Shown one piece after another: positions 13,538-20,342 of a stretch of DNA of 55,461 nt (position 1 is the stretch's first letter; each line of letters begins with the position of its first letter). The position numbers were made by a program, and so were the translations under genes. Below the pieces are notes generated by a model. The model did not search any database and was not told the origin of the DNA. It was given only the letters and a program-made list of their open reading frames with translations. The stretch is from a virus, in the IMG/VR virus record IMGVR_UViG_3300031653_000002, positions 1 to 55,461 of that record; one strand, 5' to 3'.

Positions 13538-14689
13538 GTGGATAATGGGGATCAACAATTAGTATGTTATAATTGTGAAAGCGAAATAGACGGCTGCGAT
13601 TATCAAGAAATAGACAACGAGATATACTGCCAGAGCTGTTACGATGAACTGTTTTGTTGTTGCGATAATTGCAATGAAACAGTATCGATCGACAATACAC
13701 ACTGTATTAATGATGCATGTATTTGTGATGATTGTTTCGATAATAACTATTTTTGTTGCGATGATTGCAGGGAATATAATCATAACGATAGTGCTATTAA
13801 TGCAGCAAACGGGGACACCATTTGTGAAGGATGTTACGGGGAAAATTATTTTACTTGTGAAGGATGTTATGAAGTATATCATGTGGATTGCTCTTGTGAT
13901 GGGTATTGTAATTGTTGTTACAATCAAAACAATAGCGGATGTTTGCACAATTACACGTATAAACCCGATCCAGTTTTTTACGGTAATGAAAAGGATAATT
14001 TATATTTTGGTATTGAACTGGAAATAGAATCACAAAGCAATGATATTGACGATATTGTTGAAAATATGAATGAATATATGTATGCAAAAGAGGATAGCAG
14101 TCTTGACAATGGATTTGAGATTGTATCACACCCTGCAACCTGGGATTGGATCAATAGCAATAAAAATTTGTGGAATGATATTTTAAGGCTTAAAGACGGA
14201 GGATTTAGGAGTTATAATACCGACACTTGTGGTATGCACGTTCATTTGAGTAAAGAAGCATTTTCATCCTTACATCTGTATAAGTTTTTGAAAATGTTTT
14301 ATGAAAATCAAGAGTTTATATTGACAATAAGCAGACGTAGAAAACATAACCTGGATAGATATGCCAGTCTTGAAACAGATGAAAGTATTGTATATAAAGC
14401 AACAAAAAAGTGTAATGGCCATACCAAACGATATACCGCAGTAAACCTTGAAAATAGCGAAACGATAGAAGTAAGGATATTTAGAGGCACATTGTCTGAA
14501 AACGGGTTTTATAGAAATATTGAGTTTTGCAAATCTTTATTTGAATTTACAAAAGAGGCAAGTCTTAAAGATATTACTGTATCTAAATATTGTGATTATG
14601 TAATGGATAACGAAAATACATATCCGAATTTAGCGACGTTCCTAATTGATAAGGAACTAATATCAACATTATTTAGCAGGGGACAATAA
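13538..14689 (+). CDS. Putative amidoligase with N-terminal LIM-like zinc modules
   Basis: GTG start at 13538, five bases after TAAGGGGG; the overlapping ATG at 13536 opens only eight codons. Residues 10-135 contain repeated CxxC...CxxCY units (about four treble-clef, LIM-like modules). Residues 155-383 match amidoligase-type enzymes of the GCS/glutamine-synthetase superfamily: YFGIELEIES, SSLDNGFEIVSHP, TCGMHVHLS and IEVRIFRG. Such enzymes form ATP-dependent amide bonds on a carboxylate. The adjacent class II amidotransferase, itself with a zinc module, would supply ammonia or act on the product. The substrate is unknown; the zinc modules may recruit it. Confidence 0.82.
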   Translation: MDNGDQQLVCYNCESEIDGCDYQEIDNEIYCQSCYDELFCCCDNCNETVSIDNTHCINDACICDDCFDNNYFCCDDCREYNHNDSAINAANGDTICEGCYGENYFTCEGCYEVYHVDCSCDGYCNCCYNQNNSGCLHNYTYKPDPVFYGNEKDNLYFGIELEIESQSNDIDDIVENMNEYMYAKEDSSLDNGFEIVSHPATWDWINSNKNLWNDILRLKDGGFRSYNTDTCGMHVHLSKEAFSSLHLYKFLKMFYENQEFILTISRRRKHNLDRYASLETDESIVYKATKKCNGHTKRYTAVNLENSETIEVRIFRGTLSENGFYRNIEFCKSLFEFTKEASLKDITVSKYCDYVMDNENTYPNLATFLIDKELISTLFSRGQ

Positions 14690-15418
14690 ATGTGTGTTAT
14701 AATCTATAAACCCAAAAAAGCGTATATAACACGTGAAACACTATCCGAATGTTGGGATGAAAATCCAGACGGCGGAGGTTTCATGTACTCAAAGAATAAT
14801 GTTTTACAAGTACACAAAGGGTTTATGAGTTTTAGAAAATTTTATAAACAATATAGAAAATGTGAAAATGATAATGATAGTAATTTTGTAATCCATTTTC
14901 GTATTGCAACAAGCGGATTGATAGATAGTAACAATTCACATCCGTTTTACGTCAATAAGAGTTTAGGTTTCGTTCACAATGGTATATTAAATTGCGTGGA
15001 TGTGCCCGAAAAAAGCAACAGATCCGATACTGCTATATTCAATGAAACAGTATTAAAAAAATTACCTAAAACTTTTTTGAAACAAAAAGCATATCATATT
15101 ATGCTGGAATCTATTGCCAGACAACAATGCTCTAAATTTGCATTTATGGATAATAAAGGGACTTGTTATATATTCAATGAATGTGCGGGTGTTTGGCAAG
15201 ACGGAATTTGGTTTAGTAATCAGAGGCATAAATGGGACTCGGTATTTCCGTCCAAAAAAACGGAGAAAACAACAACAGTTATTATTGAAAACGAAAAATG
15301 GATCGAATGTTATTGTTGCGGAGACTTTTACCCTGTTTCAGAATGTGTTGGTTTTGGCAATGATTTAATATGTTCGGTGTGTGCAAACGAATGTGAAAAG
15401 GATTACATTTTCAAATAG
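14690..15418 (+). CDS. Class II glutamine amidotransferase with C-terminal zinc module
   Basis: The product starts MCVIIYK, so Cys2 becomes the N-terminal nucleophile after Met removal. Further family motifs follow: NPDGGGFMY (25-33), HFRIATSG (69-76, with Arg71), SHPF, FVHNGIL (94-100) and RSDTAIF (111-117). After about residue 205 it carries a treble-clef-like zinc unit (CYCCGDF and CSVCANEC) similar to those on the amidoligase. It begins directly at the amidoligase stop, so the two are co-translated. Together they probably make an amide modification, target unknown. Confidence 0.88.
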   Translation: MCVIIYKPKKAYITRETLSECWDENPDGGGFMYSKNNVLQVHKGFMSFRKFYKQYRKCENDNDSNFVIHFRIATSGLIDSNNSHPFYVNKSLGFVHNGILNCVDVPEKSNRSDTAIFNETVLKKLPKTFLKQKAYHIMLESIARQQCSKFAFMDNKGTCYIFNECAGVWQDGIWFSNQRHKWDSVFPSKKTEKTTTVIIENEKWIECYCCGDFYPVSECVGFGNDLICSVCANECEKDYIFK

Positions 15419-15873: not shown

Positions 15874-15996
15874 ATGATTGAACCGGATTATATAGACAAT
15901 TTGATATGTGTACTGAATGAACAAGTGGACGAAGGGTATTTGTCAAAAGAGGACGCCCTGGAAATATTGTCGGAGGTTAAAGAAAATGAAGGGTAA
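15874..15996 (+). CDS. Small acidic protein (40 aa)
   Basis: The start touches the previous stop (TAGAATG), and its end overlaps the next start by 11 bases. The product is acidic and probably two helices (KEDALEILSEVK). Function is unknown. Confidence 0.5.
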   Translation: MIEPDYIDNLICVLNEQVDEGYLSKEDALEILSEVKENEG

Positions 15997-17585: not shown

Positions 17586-17849
17586 ATGAATACGAAACCG
17601 ATTGCCAGAGAAATAACAGAAGATGAATACGAGGAGTATCTTAACGAAGCGTGGGGAATTGTAGATGTTTGTGGATTACCATTCGACGCGGGAACTATTT
17701 TAATGGAACTTGATCCGACGGCTTTTAGATGCGGGCTGGCTGATTATGAAAGCGAGCTTGAACCGATAGAATGGGAATGCGGCGTTTGTGGAACTGTTTT
17801 CGATAACGAAAGTGAAGCCGACGACTGTTGTTGTGATGATAATGAATAA
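17586..17849 (+). CDS. Acidic zinc-binding protein (87 aa)
   Basis: AAGGGGATAAA precedes the ATG. The C-terminal part has CGVCGTVF and a DDCCCDD cluster. The rest is strongly acidic. This could be an interaction module similar to the other zinc proteins in the cassette. Confidence 0.55.
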   Translation: MNTKPIAREITEDEYEEYLNEAWGIVDVCGLPFDAGTILMELDPTAFRCGLADYESELEPIEWECGVCGTVFDNESEADDCCCDDNE

Positions 17850-18959: not shown

Positions 18960-20318
18960 CTATGGGAGATAATCTCTTGCCTCTGCCCCGGACTTAAATT
19001 TAAGCCCATTGTAAACATAATACCTACTATCCCTACCGCCCATTCTCCGCTTCGTCGCCTTCGGGAACTGTCTTGCTACTTCCTTCCCGAATGTCTTGCT
19101 TGACATCACCATATACCCGTTATCCCGCCCCCACTTTTTATAGGTATCATATACCGTCTTGGTCCTTACCCCAAAGTGGTACGATTCATCCCACTCATAG
19201 CTCTCCGCGAGAAACATAGCCGCAGGGTTCGATTCCTCCTTATACGCTTCCCACAGCTTCTGACTGGCATCGGCTATCACAAACCTGCGATTAGCTTTCA
19301 AATCCTTCAATCCCTCAATAGCCCAGTTCAATATCCCCGGCAACTCCTCAATAAGCTTATTATCCAAATAAGGATCAACAATACTCGTATCTACCCTATT
19401 AAAAGGCACAACTACCAATCTCCTCCACGTACCCATGCTCTTATCGGTAAAACTGGGGAAATCATTCGACAAAATCAACAGCTTCGCCGTAGCCTCCGCG
19501 GTGAATCCATGCCCCCACTTCCTCTCATAATCAACGCCATCCTTACCCGTCCAAGCCTTAATTATAGCCTCAACCTGCGGAGTCAATTCCTGCTCGGCAT
19601 CTCCGGCCACATTCAATTTCTTCCCATACGTCATATACAACGCAAATTTATCGACGAACCTCCGCAGGGGCACATCGCTACAATTCTCTTTTCCGAGCAT
19701 AGCCTTCATTACCCTGGCAAACGTACTCTTTCCCGTAGCGGCTTCTCCCTTGAGTAGCAGGAAAGACTCATACTCCTGCGTAGGAATCAACAGGTATCCC
19801 GCCCATTGCTGCAACGTCCGTCGCAACTGAGCATCCTCCATCGTAACCTCATCCACGAATTTCATCCACTTGGGACACTCTGCGGAGGGATCGTACCCAT
19901 AGGGCATTTTATTAAGGGCAAAGAAGTCCGGGGTATTCTTTTGTATTTTGGTCTCTCCATTATCTTCAAACGTCACAATCGATTTATTCGTTACAATCGA
20001 ATTCTGAGGCTCGTTGTTGTCCCTAAACCACGTATCCGGCAATCTCTCACTCACGACATTGGATAATGCCTTCAAATTAAGCATGACATTCTCTATCAGG
20101 CTGGTCGAGCACTCCACCGATAATCCCGCAATATATCTAACCAATAGGGCTTTAAGGTCATCTTTCCCCCTCTTTCGGAATATCCCATCATCCCAGAAGT
20201 AGAAATCCTCACGCCAATATATCATAGACCTCTTACGGTCGTCTCCCCAGTCTATATGTCCAATTTCCATATAGAAAGAGTATGCAATCTCCGCCGGACT
20301 TGGTTTCCTCTCAGCCAT
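18960..20318 (-). CDS. SF3 replicative helicase / primase C-terminal protein (D5/P4 type)
   Basis: The 452 aa product has the superfamily 3 motor: Walker A GEAATGKST (191-199), Walker B-like KLNVAGDAEQE (234-244), the sensor strand KLLILSNDFP (279-288) and an arginine finger GTWRRL (296-301). A D5-type N-terminal region precedes it and a winged-helix end follows. The ATG at 20318 has GAGGAAAGAACTA in front; the upstream TTG at 20342 is rejected. It is the only minus-strand gene and reads away from its own promoter at 20455-20482 toward the iterons at its 3' side. It should load at the origin and unwind DNA for the PolA enzyme. Confidence 0.9.
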   Translation of the reverse strand: MAERKPSPAEIAYSFYMEIGHIDWGDDRKRSMIYWREDFYFWDDGIFRKRGKDDLKALLVRYIAGLSVECSTSLIENVMLNLKALSNVVSERLPDTWFRDNNEPQNSIVTNKSIVTFEDNGETKIQKNTPDFFALNKMPYGYDPSAECPKWMKFVDEVTMEDAQLRRTLQQWAGYLLIPTQEYESFLLLKGEAATGKSTFARVMKAMLGKENCSDVPLRRFVDKFALYMTYGKKLNVAGDAEQELTPQVEAIIKAWTGKDGVDYERKWGHGFTAEATAKLLILSNDFPSFTDKSMGTWRRLVVVPFNRVDTSIVDPYLDNKLIEELPGILNWAIEGLKDLKANRRFVIADASQKLWEAYKEESNPAAMFLAESYEWDESYHFGVRTKTVYDTYKKWGRDNGYMVMSSKTFGKEVARQFPKATKRRMGGRDSRYYVYNGLKFKSGAEARDYLP

Positions 20319-20342
20319 TAGTTCTTTCCTCTTGTTCCGCAA

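Follow-up and report, generated by a model that had tools for sequence, protein, structure and literature searches.

A zinc-array amidoligase paired with a class II glutamine amidotransferase: a candidate two-subunit amide synthetase of phages and mobile elements

Layout of the gene pair

Two adjacent genes on the plus strand of the window, the whole 55,461-nt stretch of viral DNA analysed here, encode an amidoligase (AL) preceded by an array of cysteine-rich zinc units and a class II glutamine amidotransferase (GATase) carrying a similar unit in its tail. The coordinates assigned to both open reading frames in an earlier note on this DNA, 13538-14689 and 14690-15418, are exact. The features of the locus are as follows.

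13538..14689, + strand: zinc-array amidoligase (AL), 383 aa, GTG start; matches PF12224 (6e-11) and PHROG 16683 (5.7e-37)
13565..13639, + strand: zinc unit 1, C10-X2-C13-X17-C31-X2-C34, from Cys positions and a LIM profile match (FHL2 5e-5, PINCH 6e-5)
13661..13735, + strand: zinc unit 2, C42-X2-C45-X17-C63-X2-C66, from Cys positions and LIM profile; C63/C66 invariant in alignment A3
13757..13834, + strand: zinc unit 3, C74-X2-C77-X18-C96-X2-C99, from Cys positions and LIM profile; C74/C77 invariant in alignment A3
13856..13918, + strand: zinc unit 4, C107-X2-C110-X13-C124-X2-C127, from Cys positions and LIM profile; C124/C127 invariant in alignment A3
13946..13978, + strand: linker from zinc array to AL core, HNYTYKPDPVF (consensus IHxYxYKPxPxF), conserved in alignment A3
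14003..14557, + strand: amidoligase core with a GCS/glutamine-synthetase-like fold, from conservation and fold matches
14678..14692, + strand: AGGGG ribosome-binding site, AL stop TAA and in-frame GATase ATG, read from the sequence
14690..15418, + strand: class II glutamine amidotransferase (GATase) with C-terminal zinc unit, 242 aa, from Pfam, PHROG, profile and fold matches
14693..14695, + strand: Cys2, the expected N-terminal nucleophile after Met removal, invariant in 45 of 45 non-redundant GATases
14894..14917, + strand: glutamine-pocket motif HFRIATSG, residues 69-76, with R71 and T74 invariant
14975..14983, + strand: HNG motif, residues 96-98, the expected glutaminase oxyanion hole, with H96, N97 and G98 invariant
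15308..15382, + strand: GATase tail zinc unit, C207-X2-C210-X17-C228-X2-C231, from Cys positions

The ATG of the GATase abuts the AL stop codon in the same frame, with AGGGG lying 7 bases upstream, an arrangement that, read from sequence, is one of tight translational coupling. An AL-GATase fusion or stop-codon read-through was considered and rejected: the genes are often in frame, yet they are out of frame or overlapping in other lineages, and the adjacency therefore looks like coupling rather than fusion. The terminase encoded in the window shares only about 25% identity with its counterparts in Paenibacillus and Sporosarcina phages, and its Vibrio matches are more distant. PADLOC gave no match to a known defence system, and a search of NCBIfam returned nothing above cutoff. 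Elsewhere in the window, on the strand opposite to the neighbouring genes, 18960-20342 (-) encodes a primase-helicase-like protein with DUF5906, an RFX-type DNA-binding match (1.7e-10) and Pox_D5.

The AL matches Amidoligase_2 (PF12224) over residues 174-334 with 43.1 bits against a curated cutoff of 22, and its core resembles in fold YbdK (a GCS), GmaS (gamma-glutamylmethylamide synthetase), glutamine synthetase and PafA/Dop. Residues E160, E162, D186, E194, H234, R267, E311 and R313 are 100% conserved over 78 non-redundant AL sequences, and the GS/GCS-type catalytic motifs ExE, DxS, HxH and ExR are all present. Profile, fold and catalytic residues together bear out the earlier placement of residues 155-383 in the amidoligase superfamily, and the protein is predicted to be a GS/GCS-like amide ligase with its active site intact. 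The partner scores below the curated Pfam cutoffs (GATase_4 5e-4, 19.5 against 23 bits; GATase_6 17.1 against 27), yet matches PHROG 25883 at 7e-17 and a PurF/GlmS profile at 8e-6; its best fold match is the GlmS glutaminase domain (6.6e-6), with EgtC close behind (5e-5). Among about 45-46 non-redundant GATases, C2, R71, T74, H84, N97 and G98 are 100% conserved and D113 98%. Thus, despite the Pfam cutoffs, which are thresholds of score and not traits of mechanism, profile and fold place the protein as a class II glutaminase, as the note had proposed, with pocket and nucleophile predicted to be intact. The catalytic Cys is kept even where no ATG, GTG or TTG directly precedes it, the preceding codon being ATT in two related loci (L027 and L028) and ATC in a third (L017); apparently the former start at ATT, and the latter starts at ATC or has a short propeptide.

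At the Cys frequency seen across the window's open reading frames, about 3 Cys would be expected in the first 135 residues of the AL; there are 26, arranged as four CX2C-X13..18-CX2C units ahead of the catalytic core. The unit in the GATase tail has the spacing of AL units 1 and 2, CX2C-X17-CX2C. Searched against the PDB, the family profile finds the LIM domains of FHL2 (5e-5), PINCH1 (6e-5), CRP1 and paxillin, and the array as modelled by AlphaFold weakly matches the LIM domains of LMO2, PINCH1 and TES in fold (E ~0.01). In a canonical LIM domain, two zinc sites are joined by X2, and LIM-like arrays are protein-interaction modules. The LIM spacing CX2C-X16..23-(H/C)X2C is found in AL units 1-3 (X17, X17 and X18) and in the GATase unit (X17), with unit 4 at X13; between the sites, 7 residues separate C34 from C42, and because of this spacer of 7 instead of 2 the units are named LIM-like rather than canonical LIM. 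The "about four LIM-like modules" first recognised on the AL therefore correspond to four zinc sites forming two double-zinc LIM-like domains, and the similar module noted after the catalytic part of the GATase is present.

As the two genes are in frame, the pair was modelled with AlphaFold as a single read-through chain, joined artificially. The mean pLDDT of this model is 87.5, and most of the zinc array exceeds 90. With a pTM of 0.59 in joined chains, the relative placement of AL and GATase is not confident, so a complex is not demonstrated by the model.

Recurrence of the pair in viral contigs and mobile elements

Scans of viral contigs with single window proteins returned no relatives, and alignments were therefore needed as queries, of which one of nine divergent GATases proved too diverse. 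An AL alignment found at least 594 relatives, from which 80 loci were kept, and a GATase alignment found 397, which contributed 79 new loci. Both sets are seeded by the window family and include many related sequences, and within them the linkage is strict: the GATase lies directly downstream of the AL in 78 of the 80 AL-first loci, the other two contigs ending there, and the AL lies directly upstream of the GATase in 76 of the 79 GATase-first loci by profile. Two more of the latter (L139 and L159) carry a divergent AL missed by the profile, bringing the total to 78 of 79, and the last begins at a contig edge. Recurrence had been named in the earlier note as a test of its proposal, and neither of the outcomes that it listed as fatal, no amidoligase placement or no recurring pair, occurred.

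Clustering of neighbouring open reading frames over about 20 lineages shows that the AL and the GATase alone recur, with no third gene; replication and structural genes are common to loci only within related phages. Distances among the ALs correlate with those among the GATases (Mantel r 0.515, with 0 of 2000 permutations as high), a correlation that would also follow from shared inheritance of neighbouring genes. The idea that the small zinc proteins encoded at 15986, 16926 and 17586 serve as substrates, carriers or adaptors fares poorly: two have no relatives near any pair, and the third (17586-17849) has a single one among related loci, directly upstream of a zinc AL (L172, 7554-7748) in a contig binned as Lokiarchaeota. 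With two of three lacking a relative at related loci and the third having one, they are not general partners.

Several loci depart from the simple layout. Two tandem amidoligases precede one GATase in L017 (4340-6675), L019 (4443-6978), L028 (4547-7038) and L045 (5938-8819), and tandem amidoligases with one GATase are also present in L216, L223, L225 and L234; possibly these form a heteromeric ligase or serve two target specificities. Clostridioides phage AR1086-1 (L004, 4737-5849) has a related amidoligase with neither zinc units nor an adjacent GATase, and the 32 kb partial genome of Bifidobacterium phage BP742P1 (L010/L251) encodes a short GATase of the same family with no detectable amidoligase.

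The zinc units are widespread and unevenly distributed. When lineages are defined as groups at 55% identity of the AL core, 28 in all, and counted in the same window-seeded sets with their many related sequences, both partners carry zinc units in 19, the AL only in 7 and the GATase only in 2. By CX2C count, units are missing from both partners in 1 of about 155 pairs, and the numbers of units on the AL and the GATase correlate weakly (0.21). One large AL group has lost nearly all Cys and retains the length and, in predicted structure, a similar strand pattern, which suggests that its N-termini are zinc-free derivatives of LIM-like units; they gave no LIM match. These cysteine-poor N-termini are seen in L039, L042, L044, L047, L051, L056, L081, L088 and relatives, where the GATase keeps its zinc unit. 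The proposal of a common target or scaffold on which the shared modules dock thus gains from the 19 lineages in which both partners are armed, and is weakened by those in which only one is and by the group without AL cysteines; with units one-sided in some lineages and cysteines lost in one group, common docking is only plausible.

Among genome contigs, 167 relatives were found. The 80 loci kept are mostly from Oscillospiraceae; Ignavibacteriae, Allokutzneria and Lokiarchaeota bins contribute one case each, and some of these may represent viral contigs that were placed in metagenome bins. The AL of the Clostridia loci retains the zinc array, and its partner there is a different class II glutaminase, nearer to GlmS/PurF and without zinc units (in Oscillospiraceae, GATase_6 at 5e-11 and glmS at 3.5e-15). 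Among the 80 loci, serine recombinases are encoded in 48, integrases in 22 and relaxases in 20, all recognised by reading sequences. DUF960, named by profile search, lies near the pair in 32 of the 80 (within L171-L250, Clostridia), beside recombinases and relaxases. In one family, 100 genomes were sampled and only 11 of them have the AL gene; some isolates show five to seven matches, and some copies carry stops. A housekeeping gene of Clostridia is ruled out by the 11 of 100 genomes and the stop-containing copies; the pattern of these loci is that of mobile cargo. One GenBank entry labelled "Bacteriophage sp." (MT839723.1) carries the pair beside a prolipoprotein diacylglyceryl transferase-like gene; this contig appears to derive from the chromosome or a mobile element of an Oscillospiraceae bacterium.

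Proposed function and alternative readings

The sequences establish the families, conserved catalytic residues, zinc units, two-gene linkage and spread of the pair. The interpretation that we favour, at a probability of about 55%, is a two-subunit glutamine-dependent amide synthetase with LIM-like docking and, as the leading guess, a cytosolic protein target. We infer that a single glutamine- and ATP-dependent amide-forming enzyme would have the AL as its synthetase subunit and the GATase as its glutaminase. The GATase, through its nucleophile Cys2, would release ammonia from glutamine, and this ammonia would pass to the AL within the complex. The AL would activate a target carboxylate with ATP, in the manner of glutamine synthetase, GCS and PafA, and join the ammonia, or possibly another amine, to it, while the LIM-like units would anchor the complex to its target or tie the two subunits to each other. 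The target would be a carboxylate of a host or phage protein in the cytosol, changed to the advantage of the phage or mobile element; a cytosolic protein is guessed because LIM-like arrays bind proteins and act within cells, and because the hosts differ strongly in envelope. The strongest argument that the partner supplies ammonia from glutamine is that one type of zinc AL occurs with two types of glutaminase. Counted against the synthetase are the fold score of EgtC, a gamma-glutamyl hydrolase, which almost equals that of GlmS, the lack of GATase zinc units in 7 of the 28 lineages, and the cysteine-free state of one large AL group.

A role at the cell wall has the longest history among the alternatives. 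Modification of the wall against superinfection was proposed for phage amidoligases, including those of phiEco32, in 2009 (Iyer 2009, as cited in passages of PMC10580990 and PMC11318856, both of which repeat it), and MurT-GatD, likewise a ligase with a glutaminase, amidates glutamate in peptidoglycan (PMC3267633); the pair might by analogy modify, for example amidate, precursors of peptidoglycan or other envelope material in the cytoplasm and, through an altered surface, block competing phages. However, the neighbours of the zinc pair include no recurring ATP-grasp, gamma-glutamyl cyclotransferase or envelope gene, and the hosts, among them Mycobacterium, methylotrophs, Ignavibacteria and an Asgard-labelled contig, have very different envelopes. 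Since LIM-like arrays, moreover, are modules of protein interaction, we regard an envelope substrate as rather unlikely.

The closeness of EgtC to GlmS among the fold matches of the GATase, together with the match of the AL to PafA/Dop, would also suit a pair in which the AL links an amino acid or amine by a gamma-glutamyl-type amide bond that the GATase, as an Ntn hydrolase, cleaves. EgtC removes a gamma-glutamyl group, and Dop reverses PafA. A ligase and a hydrolase with no intermediate step would nevertheless run a futile cycle, no third enzyme recurs, and the Clostridia partner is a glutaminase of GlmS/PurF/asparagine-synthetase type, which makes such opposed activities improbable.

One of the base-modifying enzymes of phage 9g is reportedly an amidotransferase. 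Although zinc units can bind nucleic acid and phage 9g makes a modified base, deoxyarchaeosine, with phage-encoded enzymes (PMC5567051), amidation of a carboxylated base in phage DNA or tRNA by the pair is very unlikely, as no base-modification gene recurs beside it and the units match LIM domains best, by profile as well as by fold, and not nucleic-acid-binding fingers.

Beyond the two-subunit amide synthetase as such, it is conceivable, if doubtful, that the pair is a mobile two-protein writer, with which selfish elements would act on a host protein of the cytosol by amidation or tagging; the protein, such as a component of defence or transcription, would be chosen through interchangeable LIM-like arrays. 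If true, this would be a prokaryotic system of targeted protein modification with its own glutaminase, present in phages and in conjugative or transposable elements; were the target of the synthetase a protein, mobile elements would have a new route for modifying host proteins. In any case, a compact two-gene class, distinctive in the anatomy of its zinc adaptors, is set apart here, which spans hundreds of phage fragments, mobile elements of gut Oscillospiraceae and contigs assigned to bins of other phyla. Consisting of no more than two genes, the unit lends itself to direct expression and testing, with the LIM-like arrays as a pull-down handle in the search for a substrate.

Comparison with known systems

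Phage amidoligases with amidotransferases have been noted since 2009, and no tested function for these genes was found in the literature. In the parts of the respective papers drawn on here, an amidoligase and a GATase are listed as auxiliary metabolic genes of the OM43 Methylophilales phages MEP401 and MEP402 (PMC10580990), amidoligase-GATase genes occur with ATP-grasp and GGCT genes in LUZ24-like phages (PMC3890496), and amidoligases are reported in Clostridium prophages (PMC11318856). Neither the same parts of these papers nor a text search of the literature yielded a description of zinc units on phage amidoligases; in UniProt, at least one such phage protein is labelled "LIM domain containing". 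The locus had been put forward as the best candidate in the window for an undescribed enzyme system. Pairs of amidoligase and amidotransferase were already predicted (Iyer 2009 via excerpts of PMC10580990 and PMC11318856; Marvin; MEP401/402), and the novelty narrows to the zinc-armed, self-contained two-gene form, for which these sources yielded no description: the kind of enzyme is known, and the free-standing zinc-armed cassette looks undescribed.

The closest parallels are phage gene pairs. Mycobacterium phage Marvin (cluster S) has an adjacent amidoligase and class II GATase, gp105 and gp106, which are 28% and 31% identical to the window pair by tblastn (2e-23 and 2e-15) and likewise have Cys pairs, placed ahead of the ligase core and in the tail of the GATase; unlike the window pair, they have fewer zinc units and are annotated only as glutamine amidotransferase domain proteins. 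MEP401 and MEP402 share the gene pair, with a GATase about 40% identical, but differ in an N-terminus of about 330 residues with one zinc unit and in a GATase tail without cysteines; the portion of PMC10580990 consulted makes no mention of zinc units. The clusters of phiEco32, LUZ24 and tf (PF12224, PF14395, GATase_6, ATP-grasp and GGCT; represented by StenR_269 and UFV-P2) combine an amidoligase and a class II GATase in the same region as well. In contrast to the window, these clusters are multi-enzyme, with ATP-grasp, GGCT and a second ligase, none of which is found among the window neighbours scanned or recurs at related loci. In StenR_269, no zinc units were seen, and the ligase reaches only 2e-7 against the AL profile.

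Other systems resemble the pair in part. The LIM proteins FHL2, PINCH1 and LMO2 have tandem CX2C-X17-CX2C units, but are eukaryotic and have an inter-site spacer of X2 against X7 here; to our knowledge, no LIM domain protein is fused to an amidoligase. MurT/GatD likewise divides one amidating enzyme into separate synthetase and glutaminase subunits, although it combines a Mur-ligase fold with a class I GATase and no zinc array, whereas the window pair combines a GS/GCS fold with a class II GATase. Finally, PafA/Dop belong to another sequence family and have neither a GATase partner nor LIM-like units, yet they share the GS-like ligase fold with the AL and act on protein carboxylates.
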